Made by a program: the position numbers and the translations under genes. Under the pieces are notes generated by a model, which did not search any database, had not been told where the DNA came from, and saw nothing but the letters and a program-made list of their open reading frames with translations. Source: Pegea sp. RAD2-039 (taxonomy: Eukaryota > Chordata > Thaliacea > Salpida > Salpidae). From it: DNA of 64,000 bases. Shown piece by piece: positions 30,501 to 64,000 of the stretch. Location: assembly GCA_034620365.1 (NCBI GenBank), contig JAQGEQ010000263.1, forward strand, positions 248,001-312,000, written 5' to 3'. The stretch's first letter is position 1. Each line of letters begins with the position of its first letter.

Positions 30501-30535
30501 TATAAAAAGCCTTGCTCAACCGATTTTTTTAGTCT
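30501..30535 (+). promoter_or_regulatory. TATA-box core promoter of the peptide gene
   Basis: TATAAAAA at 30501-30508 in a locally GC-richer context is followed 30 bases later by an initiator-like TTAGTCT (A at 30531). This predicts transcription starting near 30531 and a 5' UTR of about 145 bases before the ATG at 30676. A clean TATA plus initiator at the right spacing fits a highly expressed or tightly regulated gene. Confidence 0.7.
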
Positions 30536-30675
30536 AAACTTGAATCTCAGAAGCCTATATTCGACGCGTATTAATAGCGAGACACTCTCTCAGCTTACAT
30601 TAACTAAGAACTATCCAGTCGGAAGCAAAGAAACTTATTTCCTTTAGAACAGATATTGAAGATATCAACTTAAAA

Positions 30676-31303
30676 ATGTCTTGCAACAAAATTACAGTTT
30701 TTATTGTAGCAGCTTCAGTTATTTTCATGATTTTGAGCAATCAAACCACTGAAGCTAGACCAACCTGGTGAGTTAGTTAAAGATTTTTAATAATTAGATG
30801 CAATAATTATGATAAATTAATTAACTTTTTTTTGGCTTTCTCATTCGCTTATCAACTCAATTCCTTTTTTAGGCAAAACATCACTTGTGTCGGAGTGGTT
30901 AAGAACTTGTGCAACTATTGGGGGAACTTTTGTCATGCTGATATCTTGTCAGGAAGAAGACGAAGATCTCTATCTTCTGCACCAGGTCGGTCGAGTCTCT
31001 TTTATCTCATTAATTTTTACTAGAAGTTTTTCTTCAAACGAATAATTTGACTAGCTCGGTTTTTCTCGTGTGTTTGACTCTGCAACTTTGCCTGGGGTCA
31101 ATGAGAAGCTTACTCAATTTTCGTTTTTAAATTTAGAAGTACTTTTGAAGTTACTTATTAATAATTTTCAAATATTTTATTTTAAAAATGTAATTTTTTT
31201 TCTAGAAACTGTTTCCCGAGCTTTGCCTCGAAGAAAACGATTTTATAGAGTTCGACTTCTCCCTCGTAACAGATGCCCTTTCTGCAAACAAGTTTGCTGG
31301 TGA
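30676..31303 (+). CDS. Secreted Cys-rich peptide precursor, 100 residues, no recognised family
   Basis: Three exons: 30676-30767, 30873-30985 and 31206-31303 (stop TGA at 31301-31303), phases 2 and 1, total 303 bases. Donors are GTGAGT and a weaker GTCGGT; both acceptors have strong pyrimidine tracts. Residues 1-27 are a signal peptide (hydrophobic core ITVFIVAASVIFMIL, cleavage likely after TEA). Residues 28-58 form a segment with Cys36, Cys44 and Cys51 and an N-glycosylation sequon NIT at 33-35. It ends SG followed by RRRR (59-62), so trimming would expose a glycine for C-terminal amidation. Residues 63-76 are a cysteine-free linker. RRKR (77-80) precedes a 20-residue cationic C-terminal peptide holding Cys92, Cys95 and Cys99 and ending CW. 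Each processed segment has an odd cysteine number (3+3), which suggests an inter-chain disulfide as in insulin-type hormones, though the spacing is not insulin-like. A neurohormone or a cationic host-defence peptide are both possible. Confidence 0.8.
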
Positions 31304-32310
31304 CCACTTTTCCTTCTCTCGGACAACTTCTCGATCACAAGCATCGCCACTGCCCTCAATTTACCACAGAATCTCGCCTCCAACCACATATCAGATCGCC
31401 GCTGATATCAGAATTTGCTTCGATCAACACCCTTGTAATCTCAGTAAAAAGTCGACGCAATAACAATTATGCTTCAATGAAACCACCACCCACTACAGAC
31501 GAAAGCTGATAAAGCCGATAGAACTGGAAAGCGCTAGCTGTTTTCGATATATTGTTGCGAACCCGTTCTTTCTCGTCGGAGTAAGGCGTAAGCACTACAA
31601 TCTACCAGAGAATTGCTTGGCTGCTTTTCAAAACTCCACTGACAGCGTTGGCTCGCGTAAGAGTTAACAAACCATGAAAGCTTAAGAAGCCGCTCTTGTG
31701 TCCAATATTCCTACTGATATGTTCCCGAATTTACGATAATAATCCTTAAATAGTTTCACACATTTCAATTGTAAGTGACAAGTTTTTATTTTGCAAAAAT
31801 ATAGGCGTAGCCCCTCTGAAATTTGTTGGTTGTGGGTGAAACATTTACTTCTGATTTCTAACAAATATTAATCCTGAAGTAAGCCATTTAATCTCTAGTT
31901 ATTCATGGTTATGATAAGATCTTTGGGAGTGAATCTTTCTTCTGCAGTAAAATCTAAATTAAAATCTCTTATTTTTGATGTTTTTATAAAATAGCATCGT
32001 TCTGTAGTTGATTTATTTACAGTTGTTGTTGTTTCATTAATGTTCGCATCAATTTGTTTCTCGTCATTTCTATGTTTTCCTTTTTCTTCCCCTTTTTGTA
32101 TGAGACGATGCTTCTGAAATTATTATTTATGACACGAATGTTTTTATTTCTATTTACTTTTTCTCTATGTCGTTTTCTTCGTCACACATCAGTAAGCTGA
32201 CGACGTTTTTATAAAACTGCACATTTTTACAAATACACAGGAGCAGATTTTGTAAAACAATTTCCATTATTTACTCAAAAACAGTGAAGAAAAATTATTA
32301 ATAATAAAAG
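31304..32310 (+). other. Probable 3' UTR of the peptide gene
   Basis: Composition stays much more balanced than intergenic DNA for about 1 kb after the stop codon, then falls back. The first clear AATAAA after this balanced stretch is at 32303-32308. The open frame at 31273-31509 overlaps the stop and has no coding support. The 3' end is inferred. Confidence 0.5.
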
Positions 32311-57736: not shown

Positions 57737-60043
57737 GTTTTTTAAGAAGTCTGATTAAAAATGAGTGAATATACTGATAATGAAAAATTTGATGCTATGT
57801 TGTTGCATATGGCACAGCAAGTCGAAGGAGGTGTCTTTGGTGTAAGTAGAATATAAATATCTAAATAATAAATTCTCAAGCATCTTGTCAATTAATATTA
57901 GTGATATCTCAATAATCTTGAACTAGAATATTGTGTTTGATACTTGATTAATTTCTATAAAATTCTTTTAACTATAAACACCTGAAATTACTTCTAAATA
58001 TTTCAAGTAATATGCTTTTAACAGATTATTTCTTATTTTCAGTTGTTGGATATTTACTTTGGTTTTTTAAGACGAAAAACTGATTTTTTTACTGGTGGCC
58101 AAGGTGGACAAGCAGAGAAGGTAATATTTATAAATCATATTTGATATAATTAGTTTTCAAGATAAAACCAAACATTATAAAGATTAATTTGTTAAAAAAT
58201 TCTATATTAGATTTATTATATTTATATAAAGGGGTTATTACAAGTAGAAGGTTGAGAATTTCATATTTGTTTTATATCATTATTCAGTTGTTATAATCTG
58301 ATAAAAAAGAACTTTAAAAATTTTTTCATTTGTTGAAATTATTTGTTGTTTTGAAAGCTGCTTTAAAAGTCTTAAACTTTTTCATATAAAATAGTTTTAT
58401 TTTTTACTAGTACTTAAAAAAGTTATTACAAATTATCCTTTTTTTGATCATATTTCATTTGTAATATTTAATAATATATCTAGTCTGTTTAACGACAAAA
58501 AAAGCTTATATTAAAACCCGGGTAGAAGGGCCCTTGTGAGTCTGGTTAATGACAACACTTCTAAGAGATGCAAAACTCCGAATTTAAAGCCGGAGTTGGA
58601 TCCCCATAAGCAGCTCATTGTCGTTCTAGCAGCTTCTGCGACGCCAGCTGGGTGCAGCTGCATCAGTCCTTCTATTCTGCTGCATACTTTGTTAGAGTGG
58701 AACCCTGCTGCTTGGGCAACAACTTGATATCCATAAATTCTGCCCTGGCGCATATATGCATGGTCGTTCTTGGCCCAAGCGGGCCAAATAAAGAATAAAT
58801 CATTAACCATACTTAGTAAATTATAAAAAATGTTTGTAGCAGAGCCTAGTGTAAATAAAATGTCTTGTATATGTGTTTGATAATTGTTGGTTTTTATATT
58901 ATAACAAATGTAGTTTCAATTTGTTTTCTTTTTACAAGATCGCTATGGAGAAGTTCAAATACCATCAAAAATTAGCAATTGAACAAAAAGCTAAAAAAGA
59001 TGCAGATAAAGCAAGAAATGAAGAAATCAAAGTAAGTTTTTAATCAAGTTTGACAATCATCCAAACTGAACTTTTATTTGATTTAGAAAAAAGAAAAAGC
59101 GAAAAAAGCACGAGAAGAAGAAATCAAGTCTAGCAAGATCGTTGAGGTGACTGAAGAAGAAGCTAAAGAACTTGAAGAAGCTCAGAAAGCCAAGAATAGA
59201 GTAAAAAATCCCAACTTCAATTAAACTTGATGAAGTCATCTCTCCACTTTTCAGGGTGACTCTCAAGCTTCTGCTAAACCTGAAGAGAAGATCTCTTCAA
59301 AAAATGAAGAAGAAAATAAAGAAGATGATGAAGAAGAAGATGAAGAAGATAAAGGAAAACTAGTTCCTAATTACGGCAATGGATGTGATCTTGATAATTA
59401 TTCTTGGGTTCAAACTCTCGAAGAAATTGAAGTAATTAAAAGTTTTCTGAATCAGTTTTCTTCAAATCAACTTTTCTTGCAGCTCAAAGTACCTTTCAAG
59501 GCAAACTTCCCGATTCGAGGTCGGGATGTTGTCTGTGATGTCCAACGAAAGCATCTGAAGATCGGTTTGAAAGGCCAACCTCCAATAATTGATGGAGAGT
59601 TGTTTAACGAGATTAAACAAGAAGAAAGTTTTTGGGTGGTCGAAAATAAATCGAGTCTTCTGCTGACGTTGGAAAAGGTAAGATCAATTGAAAGATTAAA
59701 CTCCTCCTAAGATGATTTTGTTTAGATCAATACTATGGAATGGTGGAATAAACTTGTCTCCACTGATCCTGAGATTAACACTAAAAAAGTCAATCCTGAA
59801 AACTCGAAGTTATCGGATCTAGATGGTGAGACACGTGGTATGGTTGAGAAAATGATGTATGATCAGCATCGAAAACAACAAGGACTTCCTACATCCGATG
59901 ATCAGAAGAAACAAGACATGCTTCAAAAGTTTGTTTACTGATCTTGATGTTTTGATGGAGTAAATCTGATTTATTCAATTTTTTTTTTCAGGTTTATGGC
60001 TCAGCACCCTGAAATGGATTTTAGTAAAGCCAAGTTCACATAA
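57737..60043 (+). CDS. NUDC: NUDC, nuclear distribution protein C (dynein/HSP90-linked chaperone)
   Basis: Complete gene. Exons are 57737-57841 (ATG at 57761), 58043-58120, 58939-59031, 59087-59200, 59255-59431, 59483-59677, 59726-59928 and 59992-60043 (stop TAA at 60041-60043), giving 330 residues, like the roughly 331 of vertebrate NUDC. All introns are GT/AG; the last donor is the weak GTTTGT, fixed by the conserved C-terminus. Residues 1-50 carry the conserved N-terminus with [13 protein letters not shown]. About 54-122 is a Lys/Glu-rich coiled coil, followed by an acidic stretch ([19 protein letters not shown]). The CS/p23-like domain, about 163-255, includes [28 protein letters not shown] and [18 protein letters not shown]. 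The conserved tail holds [20 protein letters not shown] and ends [16 protein letters not shown] acts in the cytosol in nuclear migration, mitosis and protein stabilisation with LIS1/dynein and HSP90. A 3' splice site just before the ATG shows at least one untranslated 5' exon upstream. Confidence 0.97.
58517..58800. mobile_element. GC-rich repeat insert in NUDC intron 2 (SINE/MITE-like)
   Basis: An abrupt island of high G+C inside a very AT-rich intron, starting at CCCGGGTAGAAGGGCCC and ending in a TGGCCC/GGGCCA hairpin (58771-58786) followed by AATAAAGAATAAA. A 10-base inverted repeat lies near its two ends: TGGTTAATGA (58543-58552) and TCATTAACCA (58800-58809). Both strands are open for 60-99 codons, a by-product of composition. 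I take it to be a non-autonomous mobile element or the end of a LINE rather than a gene. Its family is not identified and no second copy is in the window. Confidence 0.6.
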
Positions 60044-60802: not shown

Positions 60803-61480
60803 CTACTTATAGCTTGCAAATATTAAAGAGAGCACCTCCCGCTGACACACATTTTCACAAATAACATCTATTAAGTTAGAAACATAGAAAGCAAAAGATG
60901 TAGCACATGGTATTTCGGTAGTCTTCAAAGCATATAACAGTGAACAATTACATAGAATGTCAATTATAAAAAATATCAGTTTAGAAATGACAATGTTGGC
61001 AGTATTATAACGGTTCAACTTCTTTTTGAACAACACGAGTGATTCTGACATGGCAATGTTTGATGGCAGCTGGTTCCATGTACTAATTGTGTAGAATGAG
61101 AAAATATTTGCTCTGATTAATGTACCAGGTGATATGGGCTTATGAATATGTAATGTGTGTCGTCTGAGCTGATATAACTTGAGGGAAGGACTAATGGAAA
61201 AGAAATCATCAAATTGAAGGTCAACTAAATTGTGGATAATTTTAAAAATAAGAATTGAGTCGTATTTAATTCGTTGAATTTCCAAAGTATCTAAATAGAA
61301 GAAGTTTAGACGATGTTTATAACTATCGTAATTAATATTAAGTTTCCTGCATACTAATATCGTAAATGTTACCTGAACAGGCTCGATTTTTTTATATCAC
61401 TAACTTGATATGGCATCAATGCACTGACATTGTATTCAAGAATTGGACGTAAGTACAATTTGAAAAGATTTATAAAAAAG
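60803..61480 (-). mobile_element. Decayed non-LTR retrotransposon, C-terminal end of reverse transcriptase
   Basis: Read on the minus strand from about 61480: LFKLYLRPILEYN, then after a frameshift IEPVQVTFT, then YKHRLNFFYLDTLEIQRIKYD, LIFKIIHNLVDLQFDDFFS, LRRHTLHIHKP and ISTWNQLPSNI, then SLVLFKKKLNRYN. This is the order found at the C-terminus of CR1/jockey-type LINE polymerases (RPILEYN, FT, LE.RR..D, YKI, FF, RxH, WNxLP, FKxxL). The catalytic fingers and palm, and any ORF1, are absent here and the frame is broken, so it is a 5'-truncated, inactive copy. The open frame of 160 codons ending at 60803 runs past the recognisable homology, which stops near 60990. It sits between NUDC and MANEA in the opposite orientation. 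Confidence 0.85.
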
Positions 61481-62068: not shown

Positions 62069-64000
62069 ATGTTTCGAAAAGTGCTAAAATGTAGTTTAAT
62101 CATACCAATTATTTCAGTTATTTTGTTTATTTTATACTTTTTAAACCTTTACAATGAAAAGTTTCTTAAAAGAAACCATAAAACTGAAGAATTAGACCAG
62201 GTAATAGTTCTAATCAAACAATAACAAAATGATGTTGACTTTATTAAAACAGGTCACTGAACAATCTTCAAATGTTAACTACAATGTCCATGCTTTCTAT
62301 TACGCATGGTATGGGAACCCATTAAATGATGAAAGATATATCCACTGGAACCATAGATTTCTACCTCATTGGTCTGATAAAGTCTCTAAAAAGTACTCAA
62401 CTGGAGAAAGACATAATCCACCGGAAGATATAGGTCTTGAAATTAATAATAATTTTTGTAAATCTGTTAATTTTTATCTGTTTTATGCTTAATAGATGGT
62501 TTTTAAACTTTTAAATGTTTTATTAGGATCAAATTTTTATCCAAGTCTTGGTTTATATAGTTCTAAGGGTCCATTTATTCAGAAAATTCATATGAATCTC
62601 TTAAAGAAAGCTAAAATTGGTAAAAAAAAGATTTTTTGAGTTTCAAACAACTTCTTTTATCAAATTATGTCCTCTAATTTAGGTGTGATTGCTGTGTCTT
62701 GGTATCCTCCTGGTAAAAGTGATGATGAAGGCTTACCAGTAACTGAAGAATTTTGGAGAGAGTTACTAGATAGTGCAGAGTATAGTGATATTAAAGTAAA
62801 AAGAAATTAATATTTTGTTGCTTTTTACAAATAACTGAAAAAAATATTTTCTAAACAATTTTTAAAATTTATCTAAAAGATAATTCTAATTTTCAGGTTT
62901 GTTTTCATATTGAACCTTATGAGGGTCGGACTGCAAAATCAGTTGCTGAAGACATCAAATACCTCATCAAAACGTCAGTTTTTTTGCTCTTTATATTTCT
63001 ATTTAAATTTTTAATCTATTTGTTCGACTTTTTAATTGATAAAAAAGTAAAATCCCTTTTTTTCATACAACTAAATCCTTGCAATGCCTTTTTTCTGACT
63101 TTGTTGCAACAATAATAAGTCAGCACCTTGACACAAAGTAAAACTCCTTCAGCAACAACACCACGCCAAAACCTATTAATGGTTTCTCTAATTTTTAAAT
63201 TTAAATGACTTCTTTAAACTTGAAATCTTTAATAACAATTTTTATTAGAACCAGCAGAGTTTTGTTTCAAAAATATAAATTAAGTAATTTTGTTTAGAAG
63301 TGAAATATAAAAAGTTTCTTTATTTCGTTTTTTATTTATAATTTGTATTTTACTGATACCTCTGCAGTGTTCTATTCTTTTCATATCAGCTATGCTAAAT
63401 TGTATACTTAAAACCTTTTCATTATCTTTCGCTCATATTTTTTTGTTTTTCTTTCTTATAAGAGCTGCAGAATTCATCACTCGCAGCCATGCGTTGAATA
63501 GATAAATACTTTCAATAATATTTCAAACTTTTTAGCATCAAGCTACAAATTTTTACAGTTTTGGAAACCATGGTGCCATCTACAGAAAAGAACAGATTAA
63601 CGCAAAGCTAGGAGACTGGAGTCTTCCTTTATTCTATATTTACGACTCCTATCAAATTGACTCGAAAGATTGGAAGGATGTTCTTGCAAGAGATGGAAGA
63701 GCATCTTCAATCCGAAACTCACAGGACACAGATGCGTTTGTAATTGGATTATTAGTGAATAGAGATGATATGTAAGTGACTTTTCAACTATCAACTTCTT
63801 TAAATTGATGAATTTTCATCAGGCAAACTTTTGTTGATTCAAATTTCGACGGTTTTTACACTTACTTTGCTTCACATAAAATGGGTTTTGCTGCTGCTAG
63901 TGAAAATTGGAGTATACTTTCAAAATTTGCGGTTGATAACAACTTATTATTCATACCAAGTGTTGGGCCTGGATATATAGATACTAACATCAGGTTACTA
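62069..64000 (+). CDS. MANEA: MANEA, Golgi endo-alpha-1,2-mannosidase (GH99), 5' part, cut by window end
   Basis: Exons: 62069-62200, 62253-62433, 62527-62619, 62683-62795, 62897-62973, 63559-63771 and 63823 to about 63993. Phases agree throughout, encoding about 326 residues of a family near 460. GT follows each exon; the donors after exons 2 and 5 (GTCTTG, GTCAGT) are chosen by homology. Residues 1-44 give a type II membrane anchor (CSLIIPIISVILFILYFLNL) and short stem. The catalytic GH99 domain begins with NYNVHAFYYAWYGNP and YIHWNHRFLPHW, then RHNPPEDIGSNFYPSLG, VSWYPPG, VCFHIEPYEG, LPLFYIYDSYQI, FDGFYTYFA and LFIPSVGPGYIDTNIR. These match the (beta/alpha)8 barrel of endomannosidase, which cleaves glucosylated mannose from N-glycans in the Golgi, a bypass of ER glucosidases. 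The region with the conserved acidic catalytic residues lies beyond the window. Exon 7 probably ends at 63993 (CAG|GTTACT). Confidence 0.95.
62974..63558 (+). other. MANEA intron 5, the longest, holding repeats
   Basis: The other MANEA introns seen are about 50-100 bases, while this one is 585. It contains a hairpin CTGACTT (63095-63101) / AAGTCAG (63117-63123) enclosing the palindrome TGTTGCAACA, and near its 3' end copy 2 of the dispersed repeat. Transposon insertion probably explains its length. Confidence 0.7.
63404..63509 (+). repeat. Dispersed repeat, copy 2 (SINE-like tail), in MANEA intron 5
   Basis: Matches 56521-56618 along its length, best at GCAGCCATGCGTT (63483-63495) and the preceding CTTATAAGAGCTG. 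It ends GATAAATAC. It has the same orientation as copy 1 and as the host gene. Confidence 0.6.

Follow-up and report, generated by a model that had tools for sequence, protein, structure and literature searches.

A credible orphan prohormone gene that may encode a disulfide-linked two-chain peptide of insulin-like plan

To our knowledge, and within a literature search that was not exhaustive, covalently two-chain peptide hormones are few outside the insulin superfamily. The precursors of the insulin/relaxin superfamily (PF00049) are built of a signal peptide, an N-terminal chain, a linker flanked by basic residues and a C-terminal chain, with six mature cysteines. Covalently two-chain peptides are also found among the antimicrobials of marine invertebrates, where PMC10608444 describes centrocin and halocidin as short two-chain designs joined by a disulfide and including a cationic chain. 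The EP/CCHamide (GGNG) peptides have two cysteines spaced x6, an aromatic residue and a glycine between them, and a predicted amidated C-terminus; EP orthologues have been reported in two rotifers (PMC6617912). We have analyzed a window of DNA (the whole stretch considered here, 64,000 nucleotides) and describe in it a locus that can be compared with all three groups and that, judging from its sequence, is a credible orphan secreted prohormone gene. The predicted precursor has the same order of parts as the insulins, but its cysteines are distributed 3+3 instead of the 2+4 of insulin and its linker has only 14 residues. It resembles the EP/CCHamides in having two cysteines so spaced, an aromatic residue and a glycine between them and a predicted amidation, but has in addition a third cysteine, an N-terminal extension and an extra cysteine-bearing C-terminal segment. 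It also shares the C-x7-C spacing of the endothelins. Centrocin and halocidin have a single disulfide and are classed as linear helical, whereas each segment of our precursor has three cysteines (PMC10608444 for the antimicrobials).

The gene is predicted at 30676-31303 of the + strand (the strand of all its features given below), where splicing of the window sequence gives a three-exon ORF of 303 nt that codes for 100 residues and ends in a TGA stop. Exon 1 (30676..30767) begins at the first ATG after the presumed transcription start and codes for the signal peptide and the start of the first segment (segment A). Intron 1 (30768..30872, 105 bases, GT-AG, donor CTG/GTGAGT) interrupts Trp31 after the second base. 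The remainder of segment A, ending at Ser57, is found in exon 2 (30873..30985) together with the amidation glycine Gly58, the RRRR site and the start of the linker. After intron 2 (30986..31205, 220 bases, GT-AG), exon 3 (31206..31303) codes for the end of the linker, RRKR, the second segment (segment B) and the stop. The acceptors of both introns are T-rich. The donor of intron 2 (CAG/GTCGGT) agrees at 5/7 positions and is the top one among the 10 GTs in the open frame of exon 2, so far as sequence goes a donor of moderate strength. Several introns of other genes, when inspected by eye, measured about 50 bases.

A TATA box (TATAAAA, 30501..30507, a consensus match only) lies 28 bases 5' of an initiator-like TTAGTC at 30529, and there is no ATG within 30531-30675, between the presumed transcription start and the ATG of the precursor. 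The first AATAAA poly(A) signal 3' of the stop is at 32303..32308. Together with the GT-AG introns and the absence of an upstream ATG, the TATA box and the poly(A) signal are consistent with a real gene. Besides, the GC content was at least 30% (up to 49%) in 22 of the 29 150-base steps starting between 30350 and 32450, over a window mean of 26.6% (27.3% in the 264 kb), and this raised GC fits a single transcription unit that would extend over about 30.5-32.3 kb. The stretch 31250-31700, presumed to be part of the 3' untranslated region, has an unusually high GC content (41-49% in steps of 150 bases vs 27%) and also contains ORFs in other frames, of 79 and 85 aa.

In order to estimate how easily such a gene could appear by chance, we used a permissive finder that accepted a hydrophobic N-terminus, 0-2 introns with scored donors and acceptors and up to 130 aa, and that kept only models with two or more furin-type sites and six or more cysteines, even in number; these criteria were set after the gene was seen. 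Over both strands of the 264 kb, the sole model returned was the precursor gene. The full configuration appeared in 0/60 sets of order-2 Markov sequences of equal size and genome-average composition with strict thresholds, and in 0/25 sets with looser ones. When one furin site and at least four cysteines were enough in the loose setting, there were 2 cases in 25 simulated sets and 2 in the real sequence. Models with a signal peptide numbered 33 in the real sequence vs 16 in the simulated (strict), and 98 vs 68 (loose); the simulations being poorer in these models, the background is somewhat understated. Taking exons 1 and 2 as given, we simulated exon 3 alone (an in-frame acceptor tail in which a furin site precedes two or more cysteines) and obtained it in 25, 64 and 10 of 20,000 simulations with gene-region, GC-rich and window composition, respectively, that is, a 0.05-0.3% event by chance. 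Since the tests were designed after the gene was seen, the simulations support the gene without proving it.

Codon usage, trained on 14 neighbouring ORFs (3,398 codons), gave the precursor +1.8 bits over its 100 codons. This exceeds the other five frames and lies between the median and the upper quartile of 460 arbitrary ORFs. An overlapping ORF in another frame (31270-31509) scored as well, +2.3 over 79 codons. The codon usage of the precursor is uninformative, not distinctly coding. This neutral score, the moderate donor of intron 2 and an alternative acceptor in frame at 31273, which would give a 63-residue tail with two cysteines and without a furin site, are what could be expected if exons 2 and 3 were wrongly joined or the locus were not transcribed. 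Against this stand the simulations, the TATA box, the use of the first ATG and the in-frame RRKR followed by three cysteines, and we regard a mis-joined model or the absence of a gene as very unlikely.

The predicted protein reads MSCNKITVFIVAASVIFMILSNQTTEA, then RPTWQNITCVGVVKNLCNYWGNFCHADILS followed by G-RRRR, then SLSSAPETVSRALP followed by RRKR, and finally FYRVRLLPRNRCPFCKQVCW. The signal peptide (residues 1-27, 30676-30756), called by a hydrophobicity rule and motifs, would be cleaved at TEA/RPTW according to the -3/-1 rule for signal-peptide cleavage. Segment A (RPTWQNITCVGVVKNLCNYWGNFCHADILS) has 30 residues and three cysteines, is nearly neutral (computed charge +0.8) and includes an N-glycosylation sequon, NIT (residues 33-35, 30877..30885, motif only). 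Directly after it, Gly58 and RRRR (59-62; 30952..30966, again only a motif) form a candidate furin or prohormone convertase site with an amidation glycine. The linker (SLSSAPETVSRALP), 14 residues and not acidic, is placed between two tetrabasic sites, the second being the furin-type motif RRKR (77-80, 31229..31240). Segment B (FYRVRLLPRNRCPFCKQVCW; residues 81-100, 31241..31300) is C-terminal, has 20 residues with three cysteines, ends in CW and has a net charge of about +4.7. The seven cysteines are at positions 3 (within the signal peptide), 36, 44, 51, 92, 95 and 99, with spacings C-x7-C-x6-C in segment A and C-x2-C-x3-C in segment B. The layout of segments, the exon model and the RRRR and RRKR sites were proposed in an earlier note on this DNA, and our splicing, which yields 100 residues and a stop, agrees with it; the spacings given there were found again in the translated precursor, as were the glycine placed directly before RRRR as amidation signal and the sequon at 33-35. 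At the motif level, the general traits of a secreted peptide prohormone (signal peptide, convertase sites and amidation glycine) are all present.

The trait typical of insulins, two chains flanking a linker bounded by basic residues, is also seen at the sequence level, with RRRR and RRKR as the boundaries. However, the insulin A-chain motif CC-x3-C-x8/9-C is absent from the precursor, and, with the HMMER filters on, PF00049 gave no match to it up to E 10. The difference from insulin that the earlier note had claimed thus holds, and the same genome has a separate insulin-like gene. This insulin/relaxin-like gene, at L032:1408-1800 (contig C1 of genome G000, about 2.086 Mb), reached 23.3 bits with PF00049 against a cut-off of 23. 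Its B-chain is CGIELTRRWRDAC (C-x11-C) and its A-chain, found after RRRIKKR, is CCAKACTYEHIQRNYC (CC-x3-C-x9-C), with a loop one residue longer than the classical one. A short frame at L033:1498-1572 (contig C15, about 0.4516 Mb) resembles an insulin A-chain (CC-x3-C-x8-C) and falls below the Pfam cut-off.

Taking the gene model and the motifs as observed, we have reasoned from them to expression, processing, disulfides and function. Three cysteines per product cannot all pair within the chain, so that at least one inter-chain bond, A-B or in a homodimer, would be expected. This parity argument had been made before and is logically right: an odd number of cysteines leaves one unpaired within each chain. 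Homodimers, A-A or B-B, would satisfy parity equally well. Given the tetrabasic sites on either side of a 14-residue linker, we most simply read the precursor as a protein that folds as one chain and is then cut to a two-chain amidated hormone, and the sequence makes the A-B linkage likely. After loss of the signal peptide, three disulfides would form as the chain folds in the ER, segments A and B being joined by one or more of them, and furin or a prohormone convertase would cut at RRRR and RRKR, freeing the 14-residue linker. The basic residues would then be trimmed and segment A amidated at Ser57, a glycine directly before RRRR being a standard amidation signal. Because an insulin-like gene is found elsewhere in the genome, the convertase route is likely present. 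Processing of this kind would yield a signalling peptide of two disulfide-linked chains, with a mass of about 6.03 kDa before any glycan. The computed monoisotopic masses are 3449.66 for reduced A (30 aa, amidated) and 2583.33 for reduced B (20 aa), and 6026.94 Da is predicted for A+B with three S-S and no glycan. An N-glycan adjoining Cys36 would be unusual for a small hormone and counts against a hormone. Overall, we give about even chances to a single-copy gene whose secreted prohormone yields a disulfide-linked two-chain signalling peptide with the plan of insulin and not its sequence.

The cleavage site that each segment has of its own would also permit the release of A and B as separate peptides, both having one internal disulfide plus a cysteine that is free or forms a homodimer, as parity allows. 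When a single precursor has two segments with odd cysteine numbers, pairing between them is the simpler solution, and we consider such independent peptides unlikely. The charge of segment B and its C-terminal position would also suit an antimicrobial precursor, in which the cationic segment would be the effector, either on its own in homodimers or joined to A, by analogy with sea-urchin centrocins and ascidian halocidin. Two-chain antimicrobials of this kind exist in marine invertebrates, but the centrocin propeptides are described as anionic (PMC10608444) and our linker is not acidic. Segment A, near neutral and with an amidation signal, does not favor this function either, although amidated antimicrobials exist, and we hold an antimicrobial role to be rather unlikely.

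The loop of segment A between Cys44 and Cys51 (CNYWGNFC) fits C-x2-[YFW]-G-x2-C, which we take to be the core spacing of the CCHamides, and this pattern had only 2 occurrences, this site included, among the 486,710 residues of the six-frame translation of the 264 kb. The precursor might then be a divergent EP/CCHamide, a ligand of bombesin/endothelin-type receptors, with Cys44-NYWGNF-Cys51 as core, amidated, and the other cysteines secondary. The amidation glycine of segment A is consistent with this, and so is its FCHADIL (C-H-x-D-I), a stretch that resembles the endothelin tail. In endothelins the four cysteines follow the signature C-x-C-x4-D-x2-C-x2-[FY]-C; this pattern has no match in the precursor, and neither has the Pfam endothelin family. 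The inter-cysteine region of the rotifer and entoproct EPs is reported to be closer to arthropod CCHamide (PMC6617912). By the same source, however, the family has GG or GA between the second cysteine and the amide, where segment A has HADILS; segment A also has no C-terminal Asn, and three cysteines vs two. Its cysteine loop does not come directly after the signal peptide, a position to which PMC6617912 lists exceptions. Besides, the CNYWGNFC motif was picked after the fact. With EP orthologues reported from two rotifers, an orthodox EP would be expected in addition to this gene if the animal were a rotifer. One strict pattern search (control 1) found no orthodox EP/CCHamide gene elsewhere in the genome. 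We think that the precursor is quite unlikely to be a divergent member of this group.

We have searched for relatives of the precursor in several collections. With HMMER filters on, the whole precursor gave no Pfam or NCBIfam family at E up to 10, and segment B alone no Pfam family. A 68-residue piece produced a sub-threshold Pfam match to the MYM-type zinc finger (E 0.013, 15.7 bits, cut-off 22.4), which was rejected because it covers just 13 residues of segment B in a secreted protein. In PDB, the precursor and both segments found only chance-level matches (E 1.1 and 1.7, none, and 2). Over its own genome (105.7 Mb, 387 contigs), among the best candidates, which were scored, the precursor matched no locus but the three exons of its own gene, and a search with exon 2 likewise recovered exon 2 alone. 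By tblastn against the 264 kb and six loci it found itself and weak matches, the best of the others with E 0.12. A short pattern was fitted by 47 stretches of viral contigs and 312 of prokaryote genomes, with 0 confirmed as relatives in either, and five short strings of the precursor had no occurrence in the full texts of 5.39 million papers. The novelty claimed in the earlier note stands with respect to Pfam, NCBIfam, PDB, the viral and prokaryote collections and the genome itself, and its support is limited to these; in that sense the precursor is likely an orphan prohormone.

Some sequences bear on the kind of animal. The arthropod cuticle domain PF00379 had no match, in a scan without a positive control, and an arthropod seems doubtful. 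COX1 had no match either, as expected if the assembly lacks the mitochondrion. A guide/primer sequence of Brachionus manjavacas matched once, with 3 mismatches, in a gene that by eye resembles VPS13; a B. plicatilis catalase primer had no match with up to 2 mismatches, and a bdelloid spliced leader had none. The single MnSOD gene detected differs from the two B. plicatilis MnSOD primers at 6 and 8 of 20 positions at best, which makes that species unlikely, although a primer might cross an exon junction. In PMC11954553, newly assembled monogonont rotifers have 24.95-31.14% GC, with 106.9 Mb and 26.75% in B. plicatilis, values close to those of the present genome, whereas Proales similis (45.5%) is far from them. 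A monogonont rotifer other than B. plicatilis would therefore be our guess, and no more than a guess.

In phyla that have been sampled poorly, orphan precursors of peptides are often met with, and this limits the interest of the present one. If the chains were linked, the two-chain design known from insulin would have a second solution, and receptor studies would gain a synthetic target. A hormone family unrelated to insulin, with an independent origin of the disulfide-linked A-linker-B plan on 3+3 cysteines in a lineage (possibly the rotifers) whose peptide hormones are hardly known, is a possibility that we put forward tentatively and with more doubt than belief. For the peptidergic systems of spiralians, a survey of 2021 (PMC8557429) names the gnathiferans, rotifers among them, as the next frontier, to be surveyed in depth. 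The cysteine parity and the testable mass make the precursor worth one peptidomics or transcriptome check.

Other features were observed towards the end of the window. The ORF at 60806-61396 (-) is similar to one on contig C32 (227403-227867), and by eye both resemble a non-LTR retrotransposon reverse transcriptase at its C-terminal end; the window ORF had no Pfam match. Similar ORFs at 58514-58915 (-) and at 367192-367596 of contig C32 have a common 15-residue stretch and belong to a dispersed repeat. A NudC-like gene with a CS domain (PF04969) is found at 58940-60043 (+), and the first part of a gene of glycosyl hydrolase family 99 (PF16317) at 62070-64000 (+), the outer limits of both having been set by eye.
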